From Sipunculus nudus (Eukaryota > Annelida > Sipuncula > Golfingiida > Sipunculidae): a DNA stretch of 64,000 nt. Under the pieces are notes generated by a model. It saw only the letters and a program-made list of their open reading frames with translations. It was not told the origin of the DNA and ran no database searches. Location of the stretch: the NCBI GenBank assembly GCA_026874595.1, contig CM049314.1, positions 74,912,300 through 74,976,299 on the forward strand, in the 5' to 3' direction. The translations under genes and the position numbers were made by a program. Positions 14,745 through 56,000 of the stretch are shown here, piece by piece; position 1 is the stretch's first letter, and each line of letters begins with the position of its first letter.

Positions 14745-17700
14745 CATACAGAACTGGCTGTGTGTAAAACTCGGAAGCCAGAAGTCAGCAGCCAAGGATT
14801 TTTAGCTCATCTGACTATAAGTCATCTGAGCTATAGTCGTGGTCCATTGTCCTCCATCCGGATGTCCGTCCGGATGTCCGTCCGAAAGACTGGCACGTTT
14901 CGACACCGTTTGACCTACGAATCTGAAATTCGGCATTCAGTTAGATGTCCCCAAAATCTCCTACCATGCCGAAAATTCGGTCAAAAGGACTTCGTTCCTT
15001 TGAGATATTAAGGAAAAACCTCAATTTTTTATTAGAAATCTATTTTCACACTTCAGGACTGCCTAATATCAAAATCACTCATCTGGTTTTCTTCATATTT
15101 ACCATATATATTCCTCTATATAGTTCCTGTGTACATGCCAGATATTAAGTCAGTATTATATAATTTAAAAAAGTTATGGGTCCAAACATAATGGACTTTG
15201 TAAAAAAATCAGGAAGATATTTGGTCACTTAAGACCAAAAGTGTTAAAGGTAGGGACTTTTTTCCAGTAATACAACTAATTAATCAAAATTTAATTGTAT
15301 ACCAAAAATTAGATCAAAATTTGTTAAATTTTTTTAAATATTGGCAAAAATATAAAATTTGTACCTTAAATTTTGCCCAACTTTGGCCACGGCACGTTTT
15401 TTCCTGTAAGTACTGTGGATTTAATTTTCACAGCATGTATACATAAGGATTTAATCTGTTAAAATCTGAAATTTGATAATAAAAGCTGCAAAATTAGGCT
15501 AGTTATTGAATTTTTTTGGAGGCTCTTGTTTTATTCCCTTATATTGTCAAGCAGTCCACTTTGATGACTGTAGGTCAATCAGTGCACATCTCTATGCTCC
15601 CCAGGCTGTTGGCATAATTTTAGATGTCCCCAAAATCTCCTAACATACCGAAAATTGGGTCATTAGGACTTTGTTCCTTCGAGATATTAAGGAAAAAAAC
15701 TCTGTTTTCCATAAAAAAAGCCATTGTTACACTTCAAGGCTGCCTAATATCAAAACCACTGATCTGATTTTGATCTTATTTAGTATTCACATTCTTTCAT
15801 ACATTTTCTATGAACATACCAAAAATTAGGTCAATATTGGGTATTATTTTGAAGTTATGGGCCAAAACATAATGCAATTTTTTTTAAAAATCATGAAATA
15901 TATTTACTCACCGAACATGAGAATTGCTGAACCTAGAGACTTTTTTTCAGGAATATAACTTTATTTAATCAAGATTCAATTGTTTACCCAAAATAAGATC
16001 TGAATTTTGCAAATTTTTCAAGTTATTAGCATAAATAAAAAGTCAATACCTTAAATTTTGTCCAACTTTGGCACTGTTGATTTAATTTTCACAGCATATA
16101 TACATAAGGATTTAATCTTCTAAAATCTGAAATTTCAAAGAAATTGATTGGAAAGAATAGCTTTTATTCATGTTTTCATACACCATGTCAATGGTTGTTT
16201 ACATCTAGCCCACCTAGTAGTACAGCCTTCACTTGCATTATGTAACCCACCCCAGGCAGCTTGCCTTGGGTCAGCCTGGCCACTACCAGCAGGCTTCCCC
16301 TCTGCCCTGCACTCCCCCCCCCCCCCCCCAGATGGTGCATAAACTAGATGAATGTTATTATTTTCTGTATTTGATTCATTCTTATTCTAGGCTATGCTAC
16401 ATTTTAGATTTTGTATTGTACCACCAGGGTTACAATGATTAAAGTGTACATTTAATTGTGTCCACAAAGTGGTGTATTGTAATGAAAGTTTGGATGTTCA
16501 TCAGATAAGTAATTCCTTACTTCAGAAGAGTAAAAACTTCACCAGGTGTGAAATTGACTATTAATTTCAGTAATAAATTAAAACTGGGATAGTAATTAGC
16601 ACAATTATATTGTTTGTCCCTCATTCAACCAACAGTGTGTATACTTTATTTGAAAAGATGTTTTATTTTATCAAATTTACTTTTATTTTATTTTGGTGAA
16701 TAAAATTAAGCATGTACTGAAAACTCCAGTGTGCAAAACTTTTTAATAGTGATTCAGGGAATATTCTTGTAGATGCCATGTTGTGGCATTATTTTCCTTT
16801 AAATTCAGTTAAAACATTTATGATTTAAAAATAATAAAATATATGTGTATGCATAATATGACCCAATATGAGCTACACTCTGGATATATGATGATTGCAA
16901 CTTTTGCAACAATTCTAATATTTTAACTTATTGTTTCAGTTTTTTACTCTGTATATATACCGTAATGATTGCAACTTTTGCAACAATTCTAATATTTTAA
17001 CTTATATTTTCAGTTTTTTTAAATTAAAAATTAATAAAACCTGTAAATAAAAAAATGATTCAGATAAAAACTTCTTAATGGAAAAAGTGGATATGCTTAA
17101 AAAAAATAGGATTATATATATGCATTATTCCCTTGAAAGTGAAATAAAGGTATTAGTCCAATCTGTCCACTTGCCTGTCCATCTGTAAATTTTCATATGC
17201 ATCACAGTATCTCAAAATTTTACTGTTTTTCTTCATGACAGTCTTGTCAGAGTATTAGTTTGCAATCATATATTTAGAACTTTACTATAATGAAGTAGGA
17301 GGGCCCCTTTCCTCTTAGCTTTTCATATTCTTATATAAATCAAAAACATTAGAATATTTCTACATCCACCTTTGTGCTGCCCTCACTTTTCCCTTCTCCG
17401 AACCCCATCCCAAAGTCAGCCTCAGTAAGCAAGAACAAGATGAATCAGATATATTCATACTTTAATATTTGGTATAACTATACGTCGATAGGTACCTATC
17501 CTATGTACATGCCAGAAATTATGTCAATATTGTGTAATATGTAGACATAGTTGGCATCACAATAATGTACCTTGTCAAGACTAAAGAGATATTGTGTCAT
17601 ACAGTCACAAATTCATAAATCACTTCATCAGCATAGTTAACCATAACATCATATCTGTCAAATTGAAAGCTTGCAGACTACCATACACTTTAGATCCTTC

Positions 17701-18230
17701 AACAAATAGCCTTATCATCATTCTACTACTGCTTATTACTGCGCTGTCATTGCATTCATATTTGCTCAAATATATCACAATTTTCATCCCCTCCTAAATA
17801 AATAAAAAATAAACCACTATATTTGACTCTATTAATCCATCAGTCAGGTAATTTCATTTATCATTTACTCACATATTACATTACATTCCTTTATAATAGC
17901 CCAACATGTCCATGATATTCATAAGCTTTATCGACTCGATATAGTATCACAGTGGAGAAACATTTATAGTACAATCACGATCAGCTGAGCGCCGTGACCC
18001 ATGGGTCCCTTGTTTAGAAACAAAACCATAAAGCATGTACAAAATTCCATTACATCAATACTATTTCGATTTTTAACGATGCACTAGGGTCTGTTCTATT
18101 ATTCTGTGAAGAATCATAGTTATTCATTCAATAATCTGAAAGTTATAGAAGATTATGTGTTTGGAAGCCATCTCGGAAGTCATTCGGAAGTGCCGGGTAG
18201 TAGTCCAAATGTGTAAAACTCGGAAGCCAC
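14745..18230 (+). repeat. Left arm of a large inverted repeat, split by A1
   Basis: 14745-14802 plus 18015-18230 together form one arm that is the reverse complement of 20237-20520, at reduced identity. The arm begins and ends with the direct repeat TGTGTAAAACTCGGAAGCCA (14762 and 18210). The intact right arm shows that 14803-18014 was inserted later. The spacer between the arms is about 2 kb with no gene. Confidence 0.75.
14803..18014 (+). mobile_element. Repeat A1, Helentron-like non-autonomous element
   Basis: The 5' end is TTTAGCTCATCTGACTATAA, a hairpin with AGTCATCTGAGCT, followed by GTCC-rich sequence. The 3' end has TCAGCTGAGC, partly complementary to the 5' motif, then TGACCCATGGGTC and CCTTGTTT. 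Two copies of an interior unit beginning TAGATGTCCCCAAAATCTCC lie at 14944 and 15622, so the interior is partly duplicated. From about 15600 to 17330 it aligns by eye with A4 (41200-42840). A poly-C run lies at 16313-16330. Frames through it are not conserved and it appears non-coding. Confidence 0.75.
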
Positions 18231-20236: not shown

Positions 20237-20520
20237 GTCTCTGTGACTTCCGAGTTTACACATTTGGACCGCATCCCGGCACTTCCGAGTGGCTTCCGAG
20301 ATGGCTACCGAGCACAAAATCGTCTATAACTTTCAGATTACAGAATGGATAACAGTGATTCTTCATTGAATGATAGAACAGACTTTATTCTATCAAAAGA
20401 AATTAAAATCGTGTTGATCTAGAGGTAATTTGTGCATGTTTTAGCACTTTATTTATGAAAAATCATTGGCTTCTGACTTCCGGATGCCGTCTTCGGAGTT
20501 TTACACACAGCCTACAGAAC
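20237..20520 (-). repeat. Right arm of the large inverted repeat (uninterrupted)
   Basis: Reverse complement of 14745-14802 plus 18015-18230. Landmarks are TTCCGAGTTTACACATTTGG at 20250 and GGAGTTTTACACACAGCC at 20496. It preserves the pre-insertion sequence of A1. Confidence 0.75.
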
Positions 20521-22530
20521 TTCCGGGACCGACTAGGCCTGCAGTTTGCTGCAGTCTTGCAGCGCTGACATATAGTAAACACTGATCAAGCGCTGCAGCC
20601 TCTGGCGGGGAGAGTCTGTACTATCCAAAGTTGTACGGATCCGTACAAACACTAAGACATAAATGCCTTTTGTAACGTGAGGACACCAGTTAAACCCCAC
20701 ATGTTATTATTGTTACAGATGCTTGGACTCCGTTGGGACCAAAACTTTTGCTGAATGATAGGTATATAATAAAGTATGGGCACTTACTCTGAATGAAGTC
20801 AGATATTACTTCATCTTCGTCGGGCTGCTGGCCCCTTCAAGTTGGAACAGCCAATAGGAAATTAGCATCATTGACAACACGCGATGTATGATGGGAAGGA
20901 TGCTTATGAAAATATGGTCTATCCTAGTGCACGGCACTGGCAATCCTGGGAAAAGCCCCCCTGAATTCCTCTTTTGCATAGATTGCCCACCTAATTTGCA
21001 TGGGATTCCTTTTCTGGCGGTGTCCTGTTGTGCATGCAACAACTGAACCCCAGCAGTTCAAAAAACATTTACAGGCGCACATAAAGGTGATATATCGATT
21101 TAATTTGATACAAAATAAGTTTATTTCTATATATAAATACAAGATTGCTTCTCTATCTCACAACAAGCAGTGGTATTTCATGTTACAGATCCCTCCATGT
21201 ACCGCAGGGTGAACTCTCACCGCCAGACGGTCGGACTCCATATCACATAAATGGAGTCCGTATGTGGCGGACTAGCCTGCAGTATACCATTCTGGTCAAC
21301 AAAACCAGTCCTAAACAGACCTGCACAAATGCGCAATAACGAAATATACTACATTTCAAAACACTCAAAGATTATGTGATTATATTTCACAGCTAGTGAT
21401 TATTATATTTTAATATGAATATCAGTTTAACGCCATGTTAATGATTATATTAATTTAATACGACTGAAACGGGTACAAAAAATTTTGGACTCGAGTACCC
21501 GATAGTCATTACCTGACTTGGACTCGAGTACTAGTTACCATGGCAACGCTGTGAAGATAAAAAACTTTTTACCGATGCAAAATATGCATAATTTTGACTT
21601 AGTGACGGCTTTACTTTATCGCAACAAAGGAATAGATATATGTCATAACAAGACATGTCATAACTGTTAATTTGACTAGCATATGTTTAGAGCCATACGC
21701 CAGGCTACGACAATGCATCAATAATCCTACAGACTGTCCTAAAATTTGCAGTAAAATACATACATGCATGTACATACAAGAGAACTCGAGTCCAAATGGT
21801 ACTCGGTAAGTATTACCTGGACTCGAGTACTCAAGTACTCCTTTCAGCCCTATTATTATTATTAATCTATTATTATCATTATTATTATAATTAATCATAT
21901 GCATTCTGAATATAATTCTTCCGCCCAGAATACTGTACGGGGCAACAAAAACCAGCCCAGAACAGGCCTGGGATCAACCATGCGCAATTGCCAAATTAAA
22001 TACTACATATTATAATATTAACACTCAAAAGATATTACGATTATATTTTAATAAGAATAAAATTGTTTGGTAGGCCTATATTGCCATGGTAATGATCATG
22101 TTAATATTATATATAATATAATTAGTAATCGTATGTATTCAGAATGTGATTATACCCGCCTATATACCGTCTGGGACAACAGAACCAGCCCTCAAGATTC
22201 TCACCTAGTCGTGGACGAAAGTCGGGGAAAACTGACCCTTTGGTCACCAACTGCCTGTCACTAAATGCTCAACCGAAACCCTGCACGCCTGTTGGTGTGA
22301 CATAATTAATTAGCCAAGTGGTGTGATTAGGAGTTGTTATATAATGCGTTGAACTGTTACCATCTTCCCAGTTTGACTGCTGTGGTCTATGGTGCTGTCA
22401 CTGATACATGCCATAATCATATCGTGTCATTAATTATATTTGCAATACACAATACTATCTGCAATACGCACATCAATAAAGGCCTCATCCTCATGTTAAA
22501 AAAAATGCAACCCTCATAGATATATTTAAT
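20521..22530. other. No gene seen; diverged direct and inverted duplications
   Basis: Segments near 21290-21450 and 21930-22100 are diverged direct copies (ACCAG-CC...CAG-CCTG then TACTACAT and CACTCAAA). Between them GGACTCGAGTA and its inverse occur at 21490-21540 and 21780-21840. No conserved reading frame was found. Confidence 0.45.
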
Positions 22531-23430
22531 TGTATCTGCCAAAACGAAGTTTTGTGGATAATGTGTTTTTGACTGGGTTCCGCCGCCGCATTCGTTATCG
22601 GAGAACTCCTCTGAGACTACTGGACGGATTTTTCTGAAAACCAATTATCGTGTCACATGAACTGGTGCCTAATCTATTGGCGTTGACATCTGACCTTTCC
22701 TCTCTGCCCAGCGTCCATTTGTGCGTTTGTTTCCACACATAAACCCACATATCTCGGGAACCGTTTGACTGATCAGGAAAAAAAATTGTACAAATGTAGC
22801 CCTTGGATAGCTTCATAACATACACAAAAAAAAAATGGTGGCGCCACCTGCAACCATGTTTGCACAGTGTCCTTCTGTTTGTCTGCCTTGGGTTAAAATC
22901 ACTCCTATCTGTGCAGTGGTTTTACTTATTCACTTAAAATTCCACATACGTATACCTTCAGGATATCTTTTACGATTTTATGACAGGTGTTCCACCTAGA
23001 TTCACGTTTACGCTGCAGACATCCAAGCTCATATCTCAGGAACCTTTTGACCTATTTGGGCCAAAATTCTGCATGTGTATAGATCTCACATAGCTCTTAA
23101 TCATTTCCAATATTTGTGGTGCCACCTGCCACCATTTTTGCACAGCGACCTTCTGTTTGTTTGCTGTGGGATAAAATCACTCATATACAAGTAGTGGTTA
23201 GACTTATCTGCCTAAAATTTTGCATATGTATACGAATTGGACAGCTTTCTGGATTTTGTGGTAGGTTGCGCAACCTACATACACATTTCGGCTGCAGACA
23301 TCCAGGCTATTATGCAACACACCTCACTCTATTTTCCCTTGCCACTCAATCCATGCCTCACTTCACCCGTCCCACTCTGATTTTGGCAGATACATGTAGT
23401 TGCTTGTTGACTACCCGTATGAATTCTAGT
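22531..23430 (+). mobile_element. Repeat D1, Helentron-like non-autonomous element
   Basis: The 5' motif GTATCTGCCAAAA (22532-22544) pairs with GTTTTGTGGAT to form a hairpin and returns as its exact reverse complement TTTTGGCAGATAC at 23381-23393. Next is the 3' palindrome GTAGTTGCTTGTTGACTAC (23396-23414) and the end TTCTAGTTT. A CCGCCGCC-type stretch follows the 5' hairpin. The interior has GGTGGCGCCACC at 22837. It appears non-coding. Confidence 0.8.
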
Positions 23431-23637
23431 TTTTTGTGTTGTGTGCACCCATGCTAGAATATCAGCAGTGATGTTTGTTTAATTGTTTCTTGTTCTAAGT
23501 TTTTAGTACTTGCATTGTTCATATACATGTTACACATGTTCTTGTGTAACACAAAAGTAATGGTCCAGCATTGAAGCATTGTATCTGGTGTAATCTCATT
23601 GCACAAGTTCGCATTAGGCCTGTAGGCCTTGTTTTGA
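23431..23637 (+). mobile_element. Repeat B 3' remnant
   Basis: Starts directly after D1 with TGTGTTGTGTGCACCCATGC and ends with the B-type 3' end: GCACAAGTTCGCATTAGGCC, then TGTAGGCCTTGTTTT. The 5' part of this B copy was not found. Confidence 0.65.
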
Positions 23638-24976
23638 TTTTTTACAATTTTTTTCTCTATTTTTGAGACCTTAAAAGATGTGGTCATATGTTATCAGGGC
23701 ACAAAACGTAACCACTGGTCCTAGAATCTTCTATCATGACATGTAGGGAGGCCCATTAAAAGTCTCCTTGGAAAACTGGAATTAGGTCTCTGCAACCCAT
23801 AACATCTGTGCTATAGGGCTTTGAAGTACACCCAAAATACGACTAAAATTTGATCCAAAGTATCAAAATTTATATCAATAGTTCATTGATTGCCATGATT
23901 CTTTGAATGCATATTCAACATGGAGTGTTACATCAGTTCCTGCAGACTGGTTGTGCCACCAGTATTTTTGATTGTTTAATGATTTTTTTCTCAATATTTG
24001 AGACCTGAAAAGATTTAGTCATCTGTTAACAGGACCAGATGGTAACCATTGGTTCTAGAATCTTCTATCTTGACTTGCTGGGAGGTCAATGAAATATCTC
24101 TGTGGAAACCTGAAATTAGGTCTCTGTTACCCATATTCTCTGAGCTATGGGGCTCAGTAGACCCCAAGAATAACCTAGAATTTTATACAAAAGCTCTAGT
24201 ATCTCAACAAATTGTGCATTGATTGAGATGATTATTTGCATGCATATTCATCATGGAGTGTTTCATCAGCTCTTGCAGACTGCATTTCTCTCTATTTTTG
24301 AGACCTTCAAAGATGTGGTCATCTGTTAACAGGGCAGGGAAGTCAATGAAAAATATCCTTGGAAACCTGAAATTAGGTCTCTGTTATGCATATTCTATGA
24401 GCAATTGGGCTTATAAGCACACGCCAGAATATTTGAAAATGTGATACCAAAGCAGGGCACAAATTATAACCGTCAGACCTTAGAATCTTCTAACTTAAAA
24501 TCCAGGGAGGTCCATGAAAAGTCTCCTTGGAAACATGAAATTAGGTCACTGTTACCCATATTCTATGAGCAATGGGACTTAAAAGCACACCCCAGAATAT
24601 TTGAAAATTTGATACCAAAGTAGGGCACAAATCATAAACATTGGACCCAGAATCTTCTCACTTGGCATCCGGAGAGCTCCACAAAAGTGCTCCCCTCAAA
24701 ACCTGAAATTGGGTCACTGTGACCTATATTCTCAGAATTTTGGGGTTTGTTTGAGCATTCCACAAGTAATGAAAAATACACACAAAATGCCAGGTTCCTC
24801 AGGAAAGGCTGGTTGGATTGTCATCATCAAATTTGGTGTGCTAATGGGTCTTGATGAACTTAAGCTAATATGCATGAATAATGATGCCACATATATTATC
24901 TCAATTAGTTTCCTGCGCAAGGACATATTGTCAATATGTCAGTCAGCTGAGCGTCATGACCCATGGGTCACTTGTT
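23638..24976 (+). mobile_element. Repeat A2, 3' part with ~150-330-bp tandem C units
   Basis: Four to five diverged tandem units recur (CAGGGCACAAATC, AGAATCTTCTA, GGAAACCTGAAATTAGGTC and CCATATTCT blocks). The 3' end is complete: AGTCAGCTGAGC (24941-24952), palindrome GACCCATGGGTC (24958-24969), CTTGTTT. The 5' start is missing or overwritten by D1 and B. Confidence 0.7.
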
Positions 24977-26051: not shown

Positions 26052-26861
26052 TTGTATCCCCAGACAAAGTCGGGGGATACTATGTTTTCATACCGGTCCC
26101 CCTGCCGCCGCAGCATATAAATCTTGTTGGCGCGATAACTCAAAAAAATGTTTCATGGATCTTTACCAAACTTGTTATATGTATAGATATGGGTGAGAGG
26201 ACAACACCTATTTAAAATGAGGTCATGACCTTTACTAGGAGAGTGTCCTTGACCTTGAATAGGTCCAATTTTGGGGAAAGTCACAAATTCTTAAATATCT
26301 CAAGAAATCTTGCATGGGTTGATCCCAAAATCAAGTTGATCGAGAATCATAGATAGGGTTGTCATGTTCCATAAACTGGTGGCGCCACCTATTATTCTTT
26401 ACTTGTTTTCATGCCTTTTAATACCCCCAAAATTGCCACTTGACAGTACTGTGAGCATTATATGTCAAAAACTAATGGACAGATTTCTTTTATATTATGC
26501 ATATACATAAATATGGGTTATGGGATGATGTTTATTTAAATTGGGGTCATGACCTTTCCTATGAGAGTGGTCTTGACCTTGAATATTGCCATCATAGTGA
26601 AAATTACACAAAATCATTAATATCTCAATAAGGGATGCATGGATTGGTCCAAAAATCAACTTGATTGAAGATCTTGGATAGTATTGTCATGTACCGGAAA
26701 CAGGTGGTGCCACCTGTTATTCTTTTACTTGTTTTTGTGCCATTTAATGTATATTGAAATTGGGGTCATGATCTTTTCTATGAGAGTGACCTTTTCTATG
26801 AGTGTGGTCTGACATTAATTGTTGCTGAAGATGGGGGCCTGCGGTGCCAAGAAATATCTAG
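26052..26861 (+). mobile_element. Repeat E2, Helentron-like non-autonomous element
   Basis: The 5' hairpin is GTATCCCCAGAC AAA GTCGGGGGATAC, followed by CCGCCGCCGCAG. The interior has the CTGGTGGCGCCACCTATTAT unit at about 26373 and a second, diverged unit. The 3' end is CCTGCGGTGCCAAGAAAT then ATCTAGTT. The 3' copy of the subterminal motif is lost. It aligns by eye with E1 across 10550-11230. Confidence 0.75.
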
Positions 26862-27241
26862 TTCATTTCAGTTTGAATAATGAGAAAAAAAATTAAATTA
26901 TATTTTTTTTTTCTATAAGGGATTATACAGAGGAAATTAATGACAGACAAAGATGCAGTTTACAATATTAATCTAAATTTTCAGGTCTTTTTCTAAGTGT
27001 TTCAGCTTGTTAATTTATATTTATTGAAAAATTAAAAAACAATAGAAAATTTGTCAATTTTAAAAATTTATTCAGACAAGTACTGTTTAAAGATGTCAAT
27101 ATGTTTCACTTATGACATTTAGACTTGTGGCTGTATCAGCTGTCACAAGACTATGTAAATGATCAAATTTTATATTACTGGTTCCTTTATTTCAGTTAAT
27201 AATATTAAACTTGCCCATCTTTAGTTTGCTCCATGTATAAT
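26862..27241. other. No gene seen
   Basis: AT-rich spacer between E2 and A3 with no recognisable element or reading frame. Confidence 0.5.
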
Positions 27242-35437: not shown

Positions 35438-35440
35438 CGG

Positions 35441-40965: not shown

Positions 40966-41007
<42 letters not shown>

Positions 41008-44000
41008 TGAGAGAATATATGGGTTATTGGCCAAAGGAGGGCAAGATTAGACCAATCTTTGTTTATATTTGAATATTTTTAGCTCAGCTGACTATAAGTC
41101 ATCTGAGCTATAGTCGTGGTCCTTTGTCCGTCGTCCGGCCATTGGTCCGTCTTTTAACAGGGCATGTTTGAAATCATTGGACCTACAAATCCAAAATTTT
41201 GCATACAGTTAGATGTCCCCAAAATCTCCTTCCATACTGAAATTGGGTCACTAGGACTTTTGTTCCTTTGAGACAGTAAGGAAAAACATCCGTTTTCTAT
41301 AAAAAAAAGCCCTTGTTATACTTTAAGGGTGGGTAATATCAAAACCACTGATCTGTTTTTTATCATATTTAGTATACATATTCTTCAATATATTTTCTAT
41401 AAACATCCCAAAAATTAGGTCGATATTGCATATTGTTTTGAAGTTATGGGCCCAAATATAAAGCAATTTTTAAAAAATCAGGAAATATATTTACTCACTT
41501 AAGATGAGAATTGCTGAAGCTGGAGACTTTTTTTTCAGGGATATAACTTTATATAATTAAGATTCAATTATTTACCCAAAATTAGATCTGAATTTTTCAA
41601 ATTTTTCAAATTATTAGCATAAATAAAAAATCAATATCTTAAACTTTGACAATGGCACATTTTTGCCCTGTAAGCACTGTTGATTTAATTTTCACAGCAT
41701 ATATACATAAGGATTTATTCTTTTAAAACCTGAAATTTCAAAGGAATTGATTGAATAGGGTAGCTTTTATTCAAGTTTTCATACACCATGTCAAGTGTTG
41801 TTTACATCTGGCCAACCTAGTAGTACAGCCTTCACTTGTGTTATGTAACCCCCCCAGGCAGCTTGCCTTGGCTCAGCTTGGCCACTACTAGCAGGCTTCC
41901 CCTTTGCCTTACACTCCCCCCCCCCCCCCACGTTGGTGCATAAACTAGATGAATGTTACGATTTTCTGTATTAGATGCATTCTTATTGTAGGCTGTGCTA
42001 CATTTTAGATTTTGTATTGTACCACCAGGGTTACAATGATTAAGGTGCACATTTAATTGTTTCCATAAATTGGTGTATTGCTATGAAAGTGTGGATGTTC
42101 ATCAGATAAGTAATTACTTACTTCAGAAGAATAAAAACTTCACCAGGTGTGATATTTACTATTAATTCCAATAATAAATTATAGCTGAGATAATAATTAG
42201 TACGATGATATTGTTTGTCCCTAATTCAACCAACAGTGTATATACTCTTTTTGAAAAGATGTTTTTATTTTATCAAATTTACTCAGTCTTTTATTTCGGT
42301 GAATAATATTAAGCATGAACTGAAAACTCCAATGTGCAAAACTTTTTAATAGTGATTCAAGGAATGTTGTGGCATTATTTTCTTTTGAATTCAGTTTGTG
42401 ATTCAAAGATAATAAAATATATGTGTATGCATAATATGACCCAATATGAGCTACACTCTGGTAAATAATGATTGTAACTTAGAATTCTGATATTTATCAA
42501 ACTTGTAAATAAAAAAAAAATGAATCCAATAAAACTATTTATGGAGAAAGAGGATATGCTAAAAAAAAAGGCTGATATATAAACTTAAATGCATTATTCC
42601 CTTGAAAGTGAAATCAAGGTATTAGTCCCTTCTGTCCACCTGCCTGTCCATATGTAAATTTTTCATATGCATCACAGTATCTCAAAACTTTTACCGTTTT
42701 TTCTTCATGACAGTCTTATCAGAGTATTAGTTTGCAATCATATATTTAGAACTGTATTATAACAAAGTAGAAGGGCCTCTTTCCTCTTAGCTTCTCATGT
42801 GCTAATATATATGAGAAACATTAAAATAGAATATTTTGCATATTTTGCATTTGCAAAAGATTGAAACTTCAGCTGAGCGCCTTGACCCTTGTTAGCGAAC
42901 CTGTGAGCTTATGCGATGGCGCAGCGTCGTCCGTCCATCGTCAGCCGTCTGCCGTCACTCAGTACAAACAGGTGGGGTCCAGACATCACCATGGCAACTG
43001 ACCTGGCTCTGGGGGGGTGTCTAGACAATGTGTCACAGCGTCTAGACGTCTGGACACAATGTTTAGATGCAGAATTCCCAGATTATTGGAACTATATCTT
43101 TCAACTAATTGAAAAAACTTGGGTTGCATTTTAAGCAAATCGCGTTTATCATCAGGACACATGTGAACTGCTGTGCCTTCATTTTTGGTTGACCTCTGAC
43201 CTTTCCTTGCTGCCAAGTGTCCATTTGTACGTCTGTTTCCACTCTTAAACCCACATATCTCGGGAACCGTTTGAATGATCAGGCTAAAAATTTTCACACA
43301 TATGTAGCCCTTTGATAGCTTTATAACATACACTATAGATGGTGGCGCCACCTGTAACCATTTTTGCACAGCTTCCATCTGTTCATCTGCCTTGGGATAA
43401 TATTACTCATATCTCAGCAGTGGTATGACTTATCCACCTGAAATTTTGCAGGTTTACACATCCTGGACAGCTTTCTAGATTTTATGACAGGTGGCGCCAC
43501 TTACATTCACATTTACTTTATAGACATCCAAGCTCATATCTCGGGAAACGTTTGACCGATTGGGCCAAAATTTTGCATGTGTTTAGATCTTACATAGCTC
43601 TTCATTATGGGCAAAACTGGTGGCGCCACCTGCAACCACTTATGCACAGCATCCATCTGTTCATCTGCCTTGAAATAAAATCGCTCATATCTCAGCAGTG
43701 GTTTGACTTATCCACCTGAAATTTTGCAGGTTTATACATCCTGGACAGGTTTCTCGATTTTATGACAGGTGTCGCCACCTACATTCACGTTTACTCTGCA
43801 GACATCCAAGCTCATATCTTGGGAACCATTTGACTGATTGGGCAAAAAGTTTGCATGTGTATAGATCTCACATAGCTCTTCATCATAGGCAAAACTGGTG
43901 GTGCCATCTGCAACCACTTATGCACAGCGTCCATCTGTTCATCTGCCTTGGGATAAAATCACTCATATCTCGGCAATGGTTTGACATATCCACCTGAAAT

Positions 44001-47000
44001 TTTGCAGGTTTATACATCCTGGACAATTTTCTCGATTTTATGACAGGTGGCACCACCTATATTCACGTTTAAGCTGCAGACATCCATGCTAATATGCAAC
44101 ACACCACGCTCTATTCCCCTTGCCACTTAATCCATGCCTCACTTCACCCTTCCCACTCTGATTTCTGCGGATACACATAGTTGCTTGTCACCTACCCATA
44201 TTCTGGTTTTAAAATGTCCTAGTCCGAAACTTGCAGGTCAGAAACGTCCATTTTGCTGAAATCATAATGGCTAAGGTAGATATGCAGGACTTAGGAGGAT
44301 CAATATTAAATTTTAAAAATAAACCTCCATTCGTACTCCTTAACTTTGCACAGGTTCGCATTAGCCCTGTAGGCCTTGTTTAAATTTGCAACAAGGTTGA
44401 AATGTGAAAACTGTAACTTTTTTCAAGTGGAGATGGCCTCCAGACTGTAACCATCATATTTGAAATAAAAACTATGGTGGGTATAAACAGGAATTATTGA
44501 CTTGAAGAGAAATAGCTGAACTCCCTAATAACTAGAATACGGGTAGTCGACAAGCGACTACGTGTATCCGCCAAAATCAGAGAAGGACAGGTGAAGTGAG
44601 GCATGGATTGAGTGGCAAGGGGATATAGAGTTACATGTGTTAAATATTAGAATGGATCTCTGCCACATAAACATGATTGTAGGTGGCGCCACCTGTTATT
44701 TGAATGAGAAACTATCCAAGATATATACACATGCAAAATTTCATGTGGAAAAGTCAAACCACTGCAGAGATATGAGTGATTTTATCCCACAGCAGACAAA
44801 CAGATGGACGCTGTGCAAAAATGGCTGCAGGTGGCGCCACCATTTTTGTTCATGTTATAAAGCTATCCAAGGGCTACATTTGTGTAAATTTTTTTTCCTG
44901 ATTGGTCAAACGCTTCCCGAGATATGAGCTTGGATGTCCGCATAAACAGTTGGAGTGTTATGTGGAGCGTTAATGTGAATGAAGGTGTAGCCTGTCATAA
45001 AATCAAGAAAGCTATCTAGAATGTATACGCATGCCGAATTTTAGGTGAATTAGTCAAACCACTGCAGAGATATGGGTGATTTTAACCCCAGGCAGATTAA
45101 CAAATGGACACTGTGCAAACATGGTTGCAGGTGGCGCCACCTTTTGTTGTGTATGTTATAAAGCTATCCCAGGGCTACATTTGTGTAAAAAATTTTTTCC
45201 TGATCAGTCAAACAGTTCCCGAGATATATGGGTTTATGTGTGGAGCGTTAATGTGAATGTAGGTGGCGCCACCTGTCATTAAATCGAGAAAGCTATCTAG
45301 GATGTATATGCATGCTGATTTTTAGGTGAATAAGTCAAACCACTGCAGAGTTATGAGTGATTTTAACCCCAGGCAGATGAACAGATGGACACTGTGCAAA
45401 CATGGTTTCAGGTGGTGCCACCTTTTGTTGTGTATGTTATAAAGCTATCCCAGGGCTACATATGTGTAAAATTTTTTTCCGGATCGGTCAAACAGTTCCT
45501 GAGATATATGGGTTTATGTGTGGAGCTTTAATGTGAATGTAGGTGGCGTCACCTGTCATTAAATCAAGAAAGCTATCTAGGATGTATATGCATGCTGATT
45601 TTTAGGTGAATTTGTCAAACCACTGCAGAGATATGAGTGATTTAACCCAAGGCAGATGAACAAATGGACACTGTGCAAACATGGTTGCAGGTGGCGCCAC
45701 CTTTTGTTGTGTATGTTATAAAGCTATCCCAGGGCTACATTTGTGTAAAAATTTTTTCCGGATCAGTCAAACAGTTCCCGAGATATATGGGTTTATGTGT
45801 GGAGCGTTAATGTGAATGTAGGTGGCGCCACCTGTCATTAAATCGAGAAAGCTATCTAGGATGTATATGCATGCTGATTTTTAGGTGAATAAGTCAAACC
45901 ACTGCAGAGTTATGAGTGATTTTAACCCCAGGCAGATGAACAGATGGACACTGTGCAAACCTGGTTGCAGGTGGCGCCACCTTTTGTTGTGTATGTTATA
46001 AAGCTATCCCAGGGCTACATTTGTGTAAAAAAATTTTCCGGATCGGTCAAACGGTTCCTGAGATATATGGGTTTATGTGTGGAAACAGATGCACAAACGG
46101 ACGCTGGGCAGAGAGGAAAGGTCAGAGGTCAAGGTCAATTGGTTAGGCACCAGTTCACATGTGACCCGATAATTTGTGTAAGTTTCGGGAAAATCTGTCC
46201 AGTAGTCTCAGAGGAGTTCTCTGGAAACGAACGCGGCGGCGGTGGCGGAACCCGGTCAAAAACATAGTATCCGCAAAACTTCGTTTTGGCGGATACAATA
46301 AGCTAGGGATAGCTCTTGCTTGATCTCTCCCTGAAGAAGATGATATTGGTATCAGAGAGCAAAGCTTTGATGTGTTGTCACTGGCTGGTTTGAATGCAGA
46401 TGGTCTAAAGATGATTCTAAAGATAAAGAAATTTTGTTTTTCTGATGTTGTATGTGTATGTGAAGCTCTGAATTAAAATGTACTTGGTACTTCTAAACTG
46501 TAAATAGGTTTATAACATTTACAAGTGTTTCTGTCTATGAGGTTCCTAGAAGCTGGAGCGGACATCATCGAGACGGCCTCCTACAAAGCCTCCGTGGTTG
46601 GATTCATGAAACACTTAAACGTCACGGAAGATGAAGCAAAAGATTTGATCAGACTGAGCGTCACGATAGCCAAAGAGGCTCGAGATGAATTCTGGGAAAA
46701 ATGTGATAAGAAAGGTCAGTATGTATACATGCTTCTATGGTAATTCTTGAAAGATACATGGAGGTGAGGCTCCCATAATCTGATTATTTTATTTGCTCAT
46801 ATATGGTATGTGGTGTTCAGGTCAGTGGTGGTCCCCAGAAACACCCAAACATTGATGTGATGAAAAACACCACGAAACACCCACTTAACTTCAAATCTGA
46901 AGCGCATATGAAAACCAAATGATTGATAATCAATGTTGAACTCATCAATTTTGTATTACAATATTGTATCACAATTTTATGAAATACAGATATATGAGAG

Positions 47001-50000
47001 AGTTTCATATTGGAGTCACTTCAACAGCTGACACTGCAGACTTCCTGGATTGACGCTGCCTCCTTAGTAGCACAAGATACAATCAAGCTGATGTCAGATG
47101 TAGAGCACATTTTTAGCTTATGCGATGGTGTGGTCTCATGTGTCAATGCATCGTGCGTCCTCTGTACATTAACCCCACCCTTTGTCCGTAGTCCGTACGG
47201 CCATCCAGCCGTCTGTCCATAAACAGGGCACAAATCGTAACCGCCAAACCTGGAATCTTCTAACTTATCATCCAGGGAGGTCCATGAAAAATCTCCTTGA
47301 AAACCTGGAATAAGATCTCTGTTACCCATATTGTTTGAGTTACGGGGCTCCAAAGTACCCCCCCCCCAGAATAATGGAAAATTTGATACAAAGGCTGGAG
47401 TAATTGAACAACTAATGCATTGATCACCATGATTCTTTGCATGAATACTGGTCATGGGTGTTTCATCAGTTTCTGTAGACTGGTGGTGCCACCCGTTTTT
47501 TTTTTATTTTTTACAACTTATTTCTTTATTTTTGAGACCTTTAAAGATGCAGTCATCTGTTAACAGGGCACAAATCATAACAACTGGACCTAGAATCTTC
47601 TCCTTTGATATGCAGGGAGGTCCATTAAAAGTCTATTTGGAAACCTAAAATAAGGTCTCTATTACCCACATTCTTTTAGCTATGGGGCTCTAAATTACCA
47701 CCCCAGAATGATAGAAAATTTGATACAAAAGCTCCATTTTCTGAACAACTGATGCATTAATAACCATGATTCTTTGCCTAAATACTGGTCATGGAATGTT
47801 TCATCAGTTTCTGTAGACCTTTGGCGCCACCTGGATTTTTTTTTAGCGAACCTGTGAGCTTATGCGATGGTGAGGCGTCGTCTGTCATGTGTCATGCGTC
47901 ATACGTCGTGTGTAGTCTGTACGTTAACCATAGCTATCTCAAAAACGGTAGGAGCTAGCATCACCAACTTTTTTGCAAATTATCAGTCATCCAAAAAACT
48001 ATATCGGATTTTGTTTATTTTTATAGGGAAAAAGCTAAAAAAATTTTAAAAATCATCTTCTCCGAAACTGTCCAGCCAAATTGTCCAATATTTCACAGAA
48101 ATGATCCCTGGAACAATCTATCTCAAGTTTGTTCGAATGATTCCAGTTCAGAGATTTTTGGCCGAGTTAAAGGTGGTTGAACTTTGTTAACTGTGCAAAA
48201 AAGCATATTAAAATTTAAATCTCAGAAACAGCTGGAGCTATCATCACCAAATTTGATGCCAATGTTGGTCACATAGGTCATCTCTGAAATTTAGGTATTG
48301 GTGGCGCCACCTGCATTGGCCTTTTTTGTACGGGGTCATCAGTGCCTGTATCACACTAATTAGGCTGATTTATGGGAAGCTGAACTTAGCCAGTTTGCTG
48401 TATCTTCCTATATAAGTTATAAACCTGCGAAACGTTTTTTGACTGATGCCACTGAAGCCTTTACAAGAATAATCTGTACAATATTTCTTATAATAAAAAT
48501 TGTCATTAATGGTTCCACATGAATGATTTTTGGCTGAATCATGAAGATTGAATTGAGTCATTTTACCATATATGTTAGCTGTGTTATGCTGTTACATCTA
48601 GCCTGGCACCAGTTTATCAGCATCTATTACATCATGCCACTAGACATTTAGATTTCAGTTTCTCTTTATCTTTGGTTAATATTGACAAGAAAGTCTTTTT
48701 AATTTTGCATACAGTGTGCATCCATAATAATTTAACATATATTCCTGATTTCTTTTTTTTTATAAAAAGTCAGCTTAAAAGCATTTTTTATTGGGAAAAT
48801 AAATTTCAAAATTATTTCAAGTAGGGACCACTTTTGTGTACAGATGGCAGCACTTGGTTTACCATTGGCAGATTGCCAGTGCCTTGATGTTGGCCATTAG
48901 CTAAGATGATGTCAGCTCTATAAATAGTTTTGGCACAGTGCCAGGTTTGGAAGAAGTGCAGCCAGGTATCATATTTGGCACCAGAGTTCAGCCTGAATCT
49001 ATTTATAGCTTAGGCAGACTGCCAACTGTGTCAGATTATGCAACAGGTCAAGAGTTAACTCAGTGCAGCCAAGTACAGGTCAAAAGTTCACTCTGTTTAG
49101 CCAGGTGCAGGTCAAGAGTTCACTCAGTGCAGTAGCTTGAGGCAGCAATTTGTCACAGGTCACTCGGGGGCAACTGCCTTACTCAACTTAGCCTTGTTAG
49201 CCCAGTGCATCAACCTCTTGGGAAGTTTGATGTATTGGACTGATATTTTGACCTGTCTATGCGTCTTTGATGGTATTCTCATTTACAAGACAGGTGGTGC
49301 CACCTACATTGACTTTTGCAGTGTATGTGCCTGCTTATTTCTATTGAGGAATTTGGTACATCAGCCTAAAATTTTGCATGTTTATACATCTTGGATAGCC
49401 TTCTCGATTTTGTGGCAGGCGACACCACCTATATTTATGAATATGCTGCACACATTCAGGCTTATATATCAGGACTGGTTTGACATATCCCCCTGAAATT
49501 TTGCCTGTGTATAGATCTCACGTATCTCTTAATCATACACAAAATTGGTGGCGCCACCTGCCACCATTTTTGCACAGTTTCCATTTGTTTGTCTGCTGTG
49601 GGCTAAAATCACTTATATCTCAGTAGTGGTTTGACTTATCTGCCTAAAATTTTGCATGTTTATACATCTTGGACAGCTTTCTGGATTTTGTGGAAGGTGG
49701 CGCAACCTACATACACATTTCAGCTGCAGACATCCAGGCTATTATGCAACACACCTCACTCTATTTCCCCTTGCCACTCAATCCATGCCTCACTCTGATT
49801 TTGGAGGATAAACGTAGTCACTTGTTGACTACCCATATTCTAGTTTTTGTGTTGTGTGCACCCATGCCAGAATTTCAGCAGTGATGTTTGTGTATTTGTT
49901 TTTTGTTCAAAGTGTTCAGTACCAGCATTGTTCATATACATGTTACTCATGTTCTTGAAAAGTAATGGTCCAGCATTGAAGCAATCCCATTGCACAGGTT

Positions 50001-53000
50001 TGCATTAGGCTTGTAGGCCTTGTTGTTTCTTTTATTTTACTAACTATTGGCACAATACTGCATTGGCATATTCAAAAGATAACAATTTGTTCATTGATGA
50101 CATTTTTTTCTGCAAATTTGAATTTAAATGAGTGTTTCGTGGTGTTTTGTCAGAGGTACTATAAACACCGGAATTTTGGGTGTTTTGAGTGACTTGATCA
50201 GTAGAGCCACCCTGGATTTACAAAAAAAAATTGTATATTTGATTAAAAAATTTAACGATTTCCATTTTTAGCTCAGCTGACTATAAGTCATCTGAGCTAT
50301 AGTCGTGGTCCATTGTCGTCCTCTGTCTGTCCGTCCGTCCGTCCGTCTGTCTGTCTGTCTGTCCGTTCGTCCGTAGATGTGGCACGTTTTGAAACCGTAA
50401 GACCTAGGAATCCAAAATTCGGCATAATGTTAGATGTCCCCAAGATCTCCTACCAAGCCGAAAACTGGGTCTTTGCAACTTCGTTCCTTTAAGAAATTAA
50501 GGAAAAACCTCATTTTTTTATTAAAAACCTATGTTCACACTTCAGGACTGCCTAATATCAAAACAACTCATCTGTTTTTCCTCATATTTACCATAAATTT
50601 TCCTCTATATAGTTCCTATGTACATGCCAGAAATTATGTCTGTATTATTTATTTAAAAAAGTTATGGGCCCAAACATAATGCATTTTGTAAAAAATCAGG
50701 AAAGATATTTGATCACTTAACACAAAACATGTTAAGGCTATGGACCTTTTTTTCCAGTAATATAACTTTAATTAATCAAAATTAAATTTTATACCCAAAA
50801 TTAGATGAAAATCTGTTGGGATTGGATGGGCTAAAATTTAACTAATGGCTCAAGCTCTTCAGCAAAATCATACTGTTTACATATATTGTGTATTACACAT
50901 ATAGGCCTACAGTCATGTAATATATTCAAATTAATGCTATAAATCTACACTTAGTAAGCATGACTATGAGGTTTTATATGAATGCATGACACTGTTTTCA
51001 GATCAGAGAATTAAAATATATAGTCCTTGATCATCTTGCTTTGTGACGAACTAGATCAGAAGTAACAGATTCAAGGCAGATTATCTGTAAATCTGAATGG
51101 AACATTTGAACGGCATATTTATATCACTGTGCTTGTAACTAAGTGGACTGCCATAACACTGATATTATTCCTCTCATTGCGGTCTCATTGGTTGTCATCC
51201 TTAATTCAACATATCATCCCTCCACCAATCTATGAAATATAAGTATATTACCCCTCCCCTAATCTTTTATTATGAGATATTTAATTTGCATTCTAGATTA
51301 TAGAAGTATTTCATAATGTTTGCTAATATATAAATGTATGCTTTTCTAATTTGTCTGATTATTTGTCATGGTCGTTTGATTTTAGCTCGACCCTGGTTTA
51401 AGGCACATTCTTGCCCATTCTGAAATTGCTGTTGATAAATAAAATTTGTTTGTGGTCTTTTGGCCTGTGTCCACCTAAACAGTATTATACTTCTTCATGT
51501 GGAGCTGAGTATCAGAGCCTATATATGTTTTGCACTACAGACAGACAGCGCCCTCTTGTGGCCGCTGCTCTTGGACCGTTTGCTGCAGCAATGTACGACG
51601 GCTCCCAGTACACCGGCACGTATGCAGACACCCACTCCATAGAGGTATCAGCAGTTTTTAACAACCCGACACACTCCGCACTGACTTGTAGCCACAATGG
51701 TACAGCTGTGTTCAGGGACTTTTGGCATTTTTTGTAACACCCAGTTTGTATTAGCTTTGCTTCCACAGACCTTGATTCAGGGAGCAGTTCTGCTGTCTAT
51801 TTCATGAATAATGAACAATCAGTTGAACCACTCAAATGATGTGGCTGCCAGAGCACGTCTGGTGATAGTCCTGGACCACACATTTCGCACTGCTTAGGGA
51901 GTATCATGAATTTGACCAGTAAATTGTTGCCATATAAACATGTCAAGGTTCTTTTGCCAACATGTTCTTGTTTAATCGGAATGTGAACTGTGTATTGTTT
52001 AGGTTTTGTTTGTCAGATTTGAATGGCAGTCTGGATTTTGGCAGGAACACTTTAGGCTTGTTCACTGATCATGAAATAGATGCCAGAGCTGCTCACTGAA
52101 TCAAGTTCTGTGAAAGCTTGGCTGCAGCAGACTCAGTAGTATGAAAATAGATTGCAGTAAAAATATTCTCTTCTTCACGATGCATTAAGTATTCTAATTA
52201 CATCAGTGGCATGGATATACACAGAGCAAAGAGAGTTGATGTTGCAAATGAAATATGGGGATCCAGAATTGTTCCAAGGAAAATAACATGGACATGAATG
52301 TTTAGCTCAGCTGACTTTCAGTCATGCTGGGCTATAGCGATGGGTTTGTCCATCATTCTTCCGTCTGTCCGTCAAGCCATCCGGCCGGCCGGCCGTCTGT
52401 TAGCAGGGCACAAATCGTAACCGTAGGGGCTAGGGTAATCAACCCTATGCAGTCTTAGAGATTCTAAAAAGATCTCCTTGCAAACCTGAAATTAGGTCAC
52501 TGTGACCTATATTCTCAAAGTTACAGGGTGTGCTTGCATCCCCCAGAAATAATTCTTTTAGCCAAAATTTTCATCCCAGACCTTCCATCTTTCACATACA
52601 GCTACCAACAGGGGAAGAACCTTAATTATTTTGAGGTCAAAAGGCTAAAGGTCTAGGTCACAGAAGCCACTTCTTTGAAAATCCTGTGGATGCATTTTAA
52701 GCAAAACCTTTCATCCCAATTCTTTGATCTTTCACATATAGCTCCCCTACTTATCTGAGAAGAATCCTATAGATTATGAGGTCACAAGATCAAAGGTCAG
52801 GGTCACAGGATCCACTTCTTTTAAAAGGTTGTGGACACATTTCAAGCTTGACTTTTCATTCCAAACCTTCCAGCACTGTTATTGCCCCTCTGCCAACAGG
52901 GAAAAGACCTGTTGATTTTGAGGTCAAAGGTCAAGTTCACAGCACCCACTTCTTGCATGGAGTCATTTTCAGGCTAGCTTTTCAATCCATACCTTCCATC

Positions 53001-56000
53001 TGTCATATATGGCTTACCTACCAATAGGGGAAGAAGCCTATTGATGTTGAGTTCAAAAGGTCAAAGGTCAAGGTCACAATATTAAATTGTTCTAAATGTT
53101 TGTTAACATATCTCAAGTGAAACTGTTCAACCTAAAACTTCAGATGGGCACAAATCATATCTGTTAGGCCTAGAATCTTCTAATGGAACATTCTGAGATG
53201 CCCTTGGCAAATGTCTGTGGAAAACTGAAATTAGGTCACCATGACCCATATTTGCGACCTTTAGGAAAAGAAGTCCTATAAACACCCAGTCAGTCAGGGC
53301 ACACATTGTATCTGTTAGGCCTATAATCTTCTAATGTTACATTCTGAGACTGTCTTGGCCAGTGTCCTTGGAATATCTAAAATGAGGTCACCATGACCTA
53401 TATTTTGCAACCTATCAGAAAAGACGTCATATAAGCACCCAGACAGTCAGACAGGAAACAAATTGTATCCATTAGGTCTTGAATCTTTTAACATAAATTT
53501 CAGGGAGGTTTGAGCCAAGTGTCCTTGGAAACCTGAAATTAGGTCATGGTGACCTATATTGTGTGACCTATGGGCTGAAAAATGGTTTTGCGCACCCAGA
53601 CAGACAAGGCACAAATTGTAACTATTTTCCTTGGAACATTCTATTATGAAATCCAGGGGGGTCCTGGGCAGTTCTCCTGTAATTTTATTTTCTTTCCATT
53701 TTTTTAATACTGTAACTTCAACCATAGGCTATTCTCACAGACAATTTATAACATTAATAAAAAAATATTAGCACCCAGTCAAAATTAGCTTCATGGCCCA
53801 CGGGCCACTTATTTTAAATTGTATTTAATATCTTTGTGTGAATGCATATTAAACATTTTCACAACTTTACTGATTTTTGCGATTGTCACATTATTCTCAG
53901 TTTTTTTTTAATCCAGGCCAGTAATTGACATAAAAATTTTGCTGATAATCATTATCGTTACAAGAAAATATTTAAAAAATTAACTATAACAGAAACAATG
54001 ATAATTATCCCTGAAATAAAATAAAAACAGTTATCATCTACTGGAATAGTTACTTCATTATTGGTTTTCAGCTGACTTACTTCACTCTTTAATTTCCTTT
54101 TCATGACAGGCCATACAAAAATGGCATCGTCCGCGACTGGAAGTTGTATTGGACAGTGGTGTGGACATACTGGCAATAGAAACCATTCCATGCCAGAAAG
54201 AGGCTGAGGCCATGACCTTGCTACTGAAGGATTACCCAGGATGCAAAGCATGGATATGTTTTACATGCAAGGCAAGTGATCAAATTAGAGGTAGATGAGT
54301 AAAATTACAATATTGAGAACCTTCAATGTCAGGCAATCCTGTCACTATATATGTATATAATGGTACCTCAGCCAAACATTTATCTCATCATGAAAATGTT
54401 GAACAGAAAAGTGTTTGAAAATGTTACTAACATTTATAAAGTGTTACTGTCAGTGTATCCATTTTGGGTACAAATTAATACAAAAGATCTAAGGTCTGAG
54501 TAAAGGTTGTTTGAATTTTTAAATCGCTGCTTTTGATACTGACCTTAGTAAGCACATGAAGATAAAATGGAAAGGAGCTGTTAAACGTTAAACTAACATT
54601 TCAATGATTCTATCAAGGAGTTTGCTCTCAGAAAAAGCTGGGTGCTAATGGGTAATCAGAAGGGTGTGCTCACTTATGCAAGCAGAAGCCCAAAGTCATG
54701 TTCAAGCATGTCCACAATTTAACAATGTTGTTTTTATTCAAGGTCACTTATCTAAGGATTCTCTGTGTAAACATTATTCATAACAGTAATGTGTACCCCA
54801 TGGTTGTCCAAGAAGCAGAGCAGTTTGACATTTATAACAAACAGCTCCTAATAATTATGCTGGCATCTAAATCACCTGAATATTAGTTACCCAGAATACC
54901 TTACCATTGGATATACCCATGAAAATATCCTGCAATATTCTGCAGTCTATATCATATATTTGCATCAGCAAAATAAGCCAAAATTCACTAGGTGTCAGCT
55001 TAACTGTTCTTATCTGCTTTACATGCTTTATGATTTGTACTCTGTAATTTTTTAGGATGGTAAACATCTCGCTCACGGAGAGCGTCTGTCTGACGTGGTG
55101 GACGAGGTAATAAAGTCAGAACAGATCATCGGAGTTGGAGTCAACTGTATAAATCCCCAGTATGTGGAAGACTTGATTAAAGAAATAAAAGAGGTCAAAG
55201 GTCAACAAGAGATTGTTGTGTATCCAAACAGTGGAGAGAAATGGACTAAACAACACAGGTAAAAAATAAATTATACTGCATTACACTACATTAACAGCCA
55301 CCTGTCATCTTCTTGTCTTAGCTCAGCTACTGGAGGCCTCAGTTACCACAATATCTCTTTGACTATTATATGTCAGGTCTGTCGTCCGTCTGGCTGTCCA
55401 TTAAAATAGCACAGTTCTTAACCAGAAGATCAATTACTTCAAATTTTATATGCTCCCAGATTCAGACATGGTTTCTGGTGTGTGATACGATTGCGTTTGC
55501 ATTGCCTGTAAAGAGGACAACGAATTCACTGTATGTACAGTTTCTCTGCGCAGTTTGTTACCCGTGCAGGACAGCGTGAAAAGGATACATGGGTAGAATT
55601 CTGACCGCCAACGCTGTGCCACTGAACCGCAGAAAAATCATGTTCTTTGAAAGGATGAGGCTCCTTGTTTACTGTTTGATAGAGAACACTGTGAACGTCC
55701 CATGTTCATGGGAAGTCAGCCTTAGCCTTGCGATAGTTGTAACAGTTTCTTGTTTGAGCTGGCTTTGACAGTGAACTTTATTCTTGTAACTTCTTGGACA
55801 ATTGGACATGTTTACAGACCAAGAAATAAGCTGAAGTTTTAATCCAAGAAATAAGCTAAAGATTTATTTATTTTAAGTTTAATTTATGAAACAAGGATAA
55901 GACTTAAGTTTTAATCATCTGACTTAGGTTTTATCTAATAATAAGTTTTAAAACAATATATGCTTACATTTTGATTTGCTTTATTAAGTTTAATATAAGA

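Follow-up and report, generated by a model that had tools for sequence, protein, structure and literature searches.

Short repeat families of Sipunculus nudus as probable non-autonomous Helentron derivatives, and Rep-helicase elements carrying the ends of two of them

We analysed a 64-kb stretch of Sipunculus nudus DNA (G000:C9:74912300-74976299, hereafter the window) together with its host genome of 1.43 Gb in 153 contigs. The window contains several families of short repeats, designated A to F, and the sequences of their ends make it very probable that they are non-autonomous derivatives (HINEs) of rolling-circle transposons of the Helentron/Helitron2 type. A preliminary description of the window had proposed that five families (A, B, D, E and F) share one terminal plan and are all mobilised by related machineries, and had advised a search of the host genome for Rep-helicase copies with the same ends. 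Such copies were found for A and F, whose ends recur on a group of long-frame Rep-helicase elements designated K, on both sides of the gene on contig 17 and on the 3' side at nine of ten K loci. For A and F the shared ends thus bear the proposal out, but for B, D and E no partner was found, and their mobilisation by a related machinery is inferred.

Families A, B and D have a 5' motif of 11–13 nt whose complement lies 21–38 nt ahead of the 3' end, and a palindrome stands between this internal 3' repeat and the terminus. The A motif GCTCAGCTGACT is located at 27247, 41082, 50271 and 52305 (the last belonging to F), and the copy at 14805 differs from it by one mismatch. The complement AGTCAGCTGAGC of this motif, followed by the palindrome GACCCATGGGTC and CTTGTT, was found at 24941; a variant of the 3' repeat, GATCAGCTGAGC, at 17979 precedes the same palindrome and CTTGTT, and at 42867 half of the palindrome is lost and CTTGTT is present, so that the palindrome is complete in two of the three ends. 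The B motif GCGAACCTGTG occurs at 28882, 38771, 42895 and 47846, and its complement, with 0–2 mismatches, at 23602, 40369, 44349 and 49993, where the palindrome AGGCCTGTAGGCCT is complete in one of the four ends. The D end repeats agree at 13 of 13 positions, both at 22532/23381 and, on the minus strand, at 46296/44564. The palindrome GTAGTCGCTTGTCGACTAC is present in the D copy at 44530, that of the D end at 49845 carries a paired change on both sides (GTAGTCA ... TGACTAC), and the other two D ends are mismatched. These are the subterminal inverted repeats (subTIRs) by which HINEs are recognised, 11–15 bp long with the 3' one internal and a palindrome after it. The terminus is CTTGTT in the A-type ends at 18014, 24976 and 42893 and in all four B ends, and CTAGTT in three of four D ends, one of two E ends, C and the F-like end at 38646; variants are CTGGTT in D (44206), TTTAGTT in E and CTTATTTT in F (53815). 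The expectation that a palindrome and CTTGTT or CTAGTT close the better-kept copies held for A, B and D, with incomplete palindromes in several ends and CTGGTT at one D end. The flanks 5' of the elements are T-rich, with TTTTTA in five of five A and three of four B copies. The Helitron2 plan, a 5'-terminal hairpin containing the asymmetric terminal inverted repeat (ATIR), was observed in A, F, D, E and the Rep-helicase group H described below, and is absent from B.

The chance of such end pairs was estimated for 16 pairs by 2000 first-order resamplings of each 3' end. P was 0.0045 or less in 10 of the 16 (three of A, four of B, two of D, and the F 5' motif with the end at 38646), 0.046 for the A pair 14805/18014 and 0.076 for F's own pair 52305/53815; the negative pair of D 5' with B 3' gave 0.995. 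In E the repeat is 8 bp long (GTATCGCC at 10484, GGCGATAC at 12483), with P of 0.013 (10484/12530) and 0.88 (26054/26863), and the C pair gave 0.18. The inverted return of the 5' motif, which had been claimed for A, B, D and E, is consequently clear in the first three and weaker in E, in one of two copies; this E pair lies at 10484-12530, beyond the range 14803..53815 first given for it. Because the pairs were picked post hoc and some of them are cross-copy, the genome-wide counts weigh more than these P values. The A-type 5' hairpin gave 26,103 matches and the A-type 3' core 9,483, the B 5' 28-mer 9,969 (at most 2 mismatches), and the D ends 5,416 (5') and 1,902 (3'), with 0 throughout for reversed-pattern controls. 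The excess of 5' over 3' matches may come from the choice of patterns, from tandem 5' ends or from loss of 3' ends. Among the matches listed, which cover the first part of contig 1, 19 of 39 D 3' ends have a D 5' end on the same strand 1.1–2.2 kb upstream (shifted control, mean 0.45, maximum 4); for A, a 5' end was located no more than 6 kb away from 21 of 41 3' ends (mean of the control 5.6, maximum 14). A de novo scan of the window for a palindrome, CTWGTT and a distant complement was a poor finder, since its 11 candidates included just one clean element already known, D at 44530-46299.

The families had been held to differ in sequence, and this is so except in two cases. Because F carries the A hairpin and an A-type 3' end, it is, judged by its ends, a relative of A and not a separate family. 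The 5' hairpin attributed to F was confirmed, but the copy at 52298 ends with CTTATTTT at 53815, and the CTAGTT end also attributed to it belongs to the element ending at 38646. D and E have the 5' sequences GTATC.GCC and GCCGCCGC in common, E is 64–72% alike to D-type cores (longest match, 731 columns), and the two families look related. The list of five was also incomplete, as it overlooked family C (36263-37829).

In the host genome, Pfam Helitron_like_N gave at least 143 matches (150 scored of 195 candidates), some of which are pieces of one gene. The K element of contig 17 (G000:C17:35625477-35640366, minus strand, 14.9 kb) begins with TTTTTAGCTCAGCTGACTGAAAGTCAACTGAGC, a GTCC microsatellite and F-type repeats about 337 bp apart (82% to window 47209-47841), and ends with TGTCAGCTGAGCATCATGACCCATGGGTCACTTGTT, which is 97% identical to window 24942-24977. 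Between these ends lies an open frame of 2342 codons with DUF6570, Herpes_teg_N, Helitron_like_N (Rep), PIF1 and a weak Exo_endo_phos match, Rep and PIF1 being in one frame. A relative on contig 13 has a frame of 2420 codons, DNA 93% alike over 6 kb, and the same 5' end and F repeats. Six of seven further Rep loci carry an A-type 3' end on the downstream side, namely L055-L058, with 86–99% DNA identity to contig 17, and L053 and L054, a more distant K sub-type; the K-type loci L060 and L061 carry it as well. In total, nine of ten K loci have an A-type 3' end on the same strand, 0.2–1.5 kb beyond the last open frame, and it was found in none of five other Rep loci (H-type loci on contigs 3 and 4, L059, L062 and L063, the last two read over 4.2–4.3 kb only). 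Among these, L063 shows no recognisable end in its 4.2 kb, and L062 (from L035) is broken by a D copy. The window end at 18014 is nearest to L053 (34/36), and that at 24976 equals the second of two L054 ends (36/36), which may be a nested copy; the GGCCC palindrome of F at 53815 resembles GGCCCATGGGCC in L055, L058 and L061. A and F have no Rep, and their ends recur on a Helentron within this genome, which is how HINEs are defined; since K-type Rep elements carry A/F ends, A and F are very probably non-autonomous Helentron derivatives, comparable to the Cg_HINEs of the oyster. Two HINE families tied by their ends to long-frame Rep-helicase elements provide a concrete pair for assay.

About 26,000 A-type 5' hairpins are scattered over the genome, and L054, L057 and L058 have two A-type 3' ends apiece, so it has to be considered that K elements merely hold nested A/F insertions and that their true ends differ. 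The second A-type 5' end and the nested D copy inside the contig-17 element, described below, also favour this. We regard it as very unlikely, because in nine of ten K loci the A-type end lies on the same strand 0.2–1.5 kb past the last frame, and because two copies that are 98.5 and 98.8% identical to contig 17 (L056 and L057) match it up to its position 20515 and no further, a single base beyond the predicted terminus. Moreover, in a relaxed scan (at most 11 mismatches in 36) the K loci, 113 kb in all, yielded 12 A-type 3' ends at nine loci, and the other Rep loci, 156 kb in all, yielded none.

Several observations weigh against the assignment of the families to Helentron-type machinery, or limit its reach. 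The contig-17 element contains the second A-type 5' end, at 6355, and the nested D copy; its Exo_endo_phos match (E 1.3e-4) scores 22.2 bits against a curated cut-off of 24.5; and it is the single K locus with both ends around one frame. No 3' end was recognised in the 7 kb after the frame of contig 13, the tenth K locus. Exact-core 3' ends are present at four of the ten K loci only, and the other five need the relaxed match. The 15 Rep loci read gene-downstream included no recognised autonomous partner of B, D or E, and for C there is only a similar 3' end, at L059, whose terminus ACATCTAGTT resembles the window C end ACCACATCTAGTT. Folding of B gave no 5' hairpin comparable to those of the other families, contrary to the hairpin of the proposed common plan, and the end repeats of E and C are weak. 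As a separate observation, L059 (about 3945-4306 in gene orientation) is a Rep locus ending GTGTCGTTCCGACACATCTAGTT, like the C end, with a B-type core directly after.

The H-type Helentron of contigs 3 and 4 was considered as a partner and set aside. Its DNA cluster comprises 23 among the 30 Rep loci listed. On contig 4 the open frame of such a copy runs to 2216 codons and matches DUF6570, OTU, Rep, PIF1 and an endonuclease, the last with 42.2 bits and above the Pfam curated cut-off; by these domains the copy is a typical Helentron. The 5' end of the contig-3 copies (GCTTGCCGGAAATC TTC GATTTCGGCAAGC, with a GTTTGTCT microsatellite after it) is built on the same plan in another sequence. This end lies behind the gene, so that the gene is antisense to it, and the 3' end was not reached. 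An alignment of the K with the H protein, 1511 columns long, shows 32% identity. The K protein (L048 1-4537) matches Herpes_teg_N with 45.6 bits (cut-off 25) and gave no OTU match, and the H protein has an OTU match; both domain names presumably point to cysteine proteases.

Paralogous empty sites were obtained for three families. For the A element at 14800-18014, the empty site at 20313-20512 (minus strand; 75% identity in a 200-column alignment whose joint has a gap of 4 columns) reads GATTTTTCATAA, and the filled site reads GATT, element, TAGAAA. C interrupts an F repeat: when its flanks are joined, four F repeats align with them across the joint, reaching at least 92 nt past it in three cases and 19 nt in one. 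A D copy lies inside an H-type Helentron on contig 3, where the filled site is GATATT, the element (TGTATC...TTTTAGTT) and TTTTGTAA, and the related contig-4 sequence is empty (GATATTTTTTAATAA). A, C and D thus sit at T runs or TT, and the duplication is never longer than a few T. Of the 14 joined-flank queries within the window, 12 gave nothing spanning the joint (that of the 41075 copy used 42888 as its end, and CTTGTT ends at 42893). The empty sites accordingly show the predicted T-T insertion in A, C and D; B, E and F have T-rich flanks, and no empty site spanning their joints was found in the window. Terminal duplications of several bp, which had been named as evidence against a Helentron-like nature, were not seen for A, C and D.

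These sites also bear on the possibility that the families are miniature inverted-repeat transposable elements (MITEs) moved by a DDE transposase, with ordinary terminal inverted repeats. Such elements would be expected to be short and abundant with inverted repeats near both ends, as these are. However, the 3' repeat here is internal and followed by a palindrome and CTTGTT or CTAGTT, the three families with empty sites (A, C and D) have no duplication beyond T, and the A/F ends are found on Rep-helicase elements. The empty sites contradict the MITE explanation for A, C and D, the partner ends do so for A and F, and for the set as a whole we give it hardly any credence. On the Helentron reading, the K protein would nick at the T-rich ends, copying of one strand would start at the 5' hairpin and stop at the 3' repeat with its palindrome and CTTGTT or CTAGTT, and A and F would use the K protein in trans.

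The common plan is kept in most points by B, C, D and E, and it is probable that related Rep proteins move these families. It could instead be that B, D and E depend on a machinery different from that of A and F and resemble them by convergence. None of the 15 Rep loci read downstream has B, D or E ends, the H-type 5' ends are quite different in sequence, and B has no hairpin, all of which would fit. Against this stand the common plan, the insertion of D at T runs, the CTTGTT/CTAGTT termini and a hybrid of D 5' and B 3' ends at 22529-23633, and we consider convergence unlikely. The hybrid has its D-3'/B-3' junction in common with the B copy at 47840-50024 (22935-23633 against 49367-50024, 80%); in a B copy that lacks D, the place of that junction reads TTTT. 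The simplest story for such a sequence would be that D inserted in B and that a later copy was made from the D 5' end to the B 3' end. Since it would have started at a D 5' end and stopped at a B 3' end, one machinery would accept both, and 22529-23633 is possibly the record of a single machinery using D and B ends. The hybrid is represented by one copy only, and the joined-flank search of the window gave no empty site for it.

The 5' hairpins of several families carry a constant defect. In A the inner arm is AGTCA-T-CTGAGC, and a perfect stem requires G instead of the central T; among 100 matches listed this position was T in 97, A in 2, C in 1 and G in none. The hairpin patterns were free at one position only, and the places listed are the first on contig 1. 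Genome-wide, the perfect A hairpin was found at 129 of about 25,970 sites (each counted on both strands), or 0.5%. In the A 3' repeat, the pairing G is present at every place among about 100 matches listed of 9,483. In D the inner arm is one base short in 100 of 100 matches listed of 5,416, and the absent base is present everywhere in the 3' repeat among about 100 listed of 1,902. The H hairpin misses one base, as in D, and E at 26054 has one mismatch, its 3' repeat being lost. No single-defect rule covers all families: B has no hairpin, the short stem of C is free of defects, and E at 10484 and three of five folded D copies have more than one. In energies calculated with DNA parameters, the outer arm prefers the 3' repeat over the inner arm in seven of eight sets, e.g., -15.6 versus -10.7 kcal/mol for A and -15.7 versus -11.0 for D at 46296, and the window A set 14805/18014 shows no preference (-8.6 versus -8.5); both pairings were modelled as two separate strands, which leaves out the proximity advantage of a hairpin.

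Bao and Jurka proposed that pairing of both ATIRs opens the 5' hairpin (PMC3627910). The fixed defect in A, F, D and H would make the outer arm favour the 3' repeat, joining both ends, and the defect together with the pairing base in the 3' repeat suggests a switch toward end-to-end pairing. We tentatively propose a strand exchange, possible though rather doubtful, in which selection keeps the defect, the outer arm swaps the inner arm for the 3' repeat and so sets the rolling-circle stop, and the inner arm is not read as a 3' end. Founder descent within each family, with no function for the defect, is an explanation that we judge about equally likely to be right or wrong. All A copies may stem from few sources; perfect A hairpins are of the same order as the other changes at that base in the listed sample; the C stem is intact, whereas several defects are present in D and E copies that have decayed; and in most oyster Cg_HINE elements perfect subTIR pairs are a minority (PMC7492417). 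Conversely, the type of defect varies by family, since A, K and one E copy have a mismatch and D and H lack a base, and within K the mismatched base itself varies, yet the common forms stay defective while the 3' repeat pairs. A fixed hairpin defect is not described in the available parts of the literature found on hairpin and mismatch (PMC2374699, PMC3630058). The defect suggests a way, amenable to testing, in which rolling-circle transposons could distinguish the 5' from the 3' end.

Elements of this kind are already known; new here are these particular members, their connection with K and the defect of the hairpin. The following comparisons draw on sections of the cited papers. HINE elements are abundant in molluscs. 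Cg_HINE of Crassostrea gigas resembles the present families in its 5' subTIR with a complementary inverted repeat, GTCC-type microsatellite, tandem repeats, 3' subTIR, palindrome and T-rich insertion without duplication (PMC7492417). It differs in that the oyster driver was left open there, with no tie to any autonomous Helentron (PMC7492417), whereas such a partner was found here for A and F, and in that most of the oyster elements have predominantly subTIR pairs with a single mismatch (PMC7492417). No HINE–Helentron tie is shown in the portions at hand of the 2021 oyster genome paper (PMC7992393) and of a bivalve transposon survey (PMC10294476), and a literature search for a bivalve RepHel partner gave none. 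The HINE/DINE-1 elements and Helentrons of Drosophila and mites likewise have palindromic subTIRs, a 3' palindrome, a TT target and a Rep-helicase-endonuclease partner with the same ends (PMC4067079). Their sequences differ, and the main text contains neither 'mismatch' nor 'imperfect', so that the defect is not described in those words (PMC4067079). Helitron2 is similar in its ATIRs, hairpins at both ends and insertion beside T runs (PMC3627910), but in the present elements the endonuclease, a Helentron mark, is clear in H and weak in K; the Chlamydomonas Helitron2 elements with duplications (PMC3627910) have no counterpart seen here. FoHeli of Fusarium oxysporum shares the ends with ATIR and hairpin, and differs in its termini, in shorter 5' stems as printed and in the lack of an endonuclease in the fungal proteins surveyed in that source (PMC5148889).

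The coordinates of the elements in the window are collected in Table 1. At 42867-42905 an A 3' end abuts a B 5' end, head to tail.

Table 1. Repeat elements of the window, with positions counted from its first nucleotide
Element	Position	Strand	Features
A element, full length	14800..18014	+	hairpin 14805-14831, 3' repeat 17979-17990, palindrome, CTTGTT; empty site 20313-20512 minus; 3' type as Rep locus L053
A copy	27240..27938	+	hairpin 27247-27273, clear 5' end; 3' limit undefined
A copy	41075..42893	+	half-lost 3' palindrome, CTTGTT kept; B 5' end directly after
A copy	50264..50867	+	5' end and core only
A copy	63032..63730	-	5' hairpin decayed
F element	52298..53815	+	A-type 5' hairpin, tandem repeats, GGCCCACGGGCC palindrome, CTTATTTT end
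F-type element without 5' end	23634..24976	+	3' end 97% over 36 nt to contig-17 Rep element end
F-like element	38182..38646	+	A-type 3' end with CTAGTT; start approximate
D/B hybrid	22529..23633	+	D 5' end and core, then the 3' ends of D (23381-23431) and B (23602-23633)
B 5' end and core	28876..29506	+	end approximate
B element	38765..40400	+	end repeats; 5' hairpin absent; terminus CTTGTT
Composite, D-type core and D 3' end between B ends	42889..44380	+	
B element with 5'-truncated D near 3' end	47840..50024	+	D 3' end 49799-49845
D element, full length, four 280-bp core units	44530..46299	-	end repeats agree at 13 of 13 positions
E element	10482..12530	+	GTATCGCC ... GGCGATAC, TTTAGTT end
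E element	26052..26863	+	3' repeat lost, CTAGTT end
C element	36263..37829	+	tandem repeats of 145 bp, short hairpin at the 5' end, terminus CTAGTT; four F repeats aligned with the joined flanks

No tRNA was detected in the window by ARAGORN, and Rfam gave no match in it at gathering scores. Ten long ones of its 289 open stretches of at least 55 codons were scanned against Pfam; the single match above a curated cut-off was a reverse transcriptase fragment with RNase H at 2633-3244 on the minus strand, which we take to be gypsy-like, and neither Rep nor helicase was found in them. Self-comparison of the window showed abundant dispersed and tandem repeats. The palindrome GGTGGCGCCACC, on which a literature search gave nothing related, has 43 copies in the window at up to 2 mismatches, with 0.25 expected from 20 first-order resamplings. 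Its copies are mostly within tandem units of B, D, E and F, with sites at 10708-12299, 22837-23275, 26378-26714, 29342, 38046, 43341-45981, 47482, 48300 and 49293-49707. Apart from the described families, tandem arrays were observed at 6-302 (43-bp unit) and 8876-9209 (56-bp unit), the latter including a GACATTACGTAATGTCC stretch.

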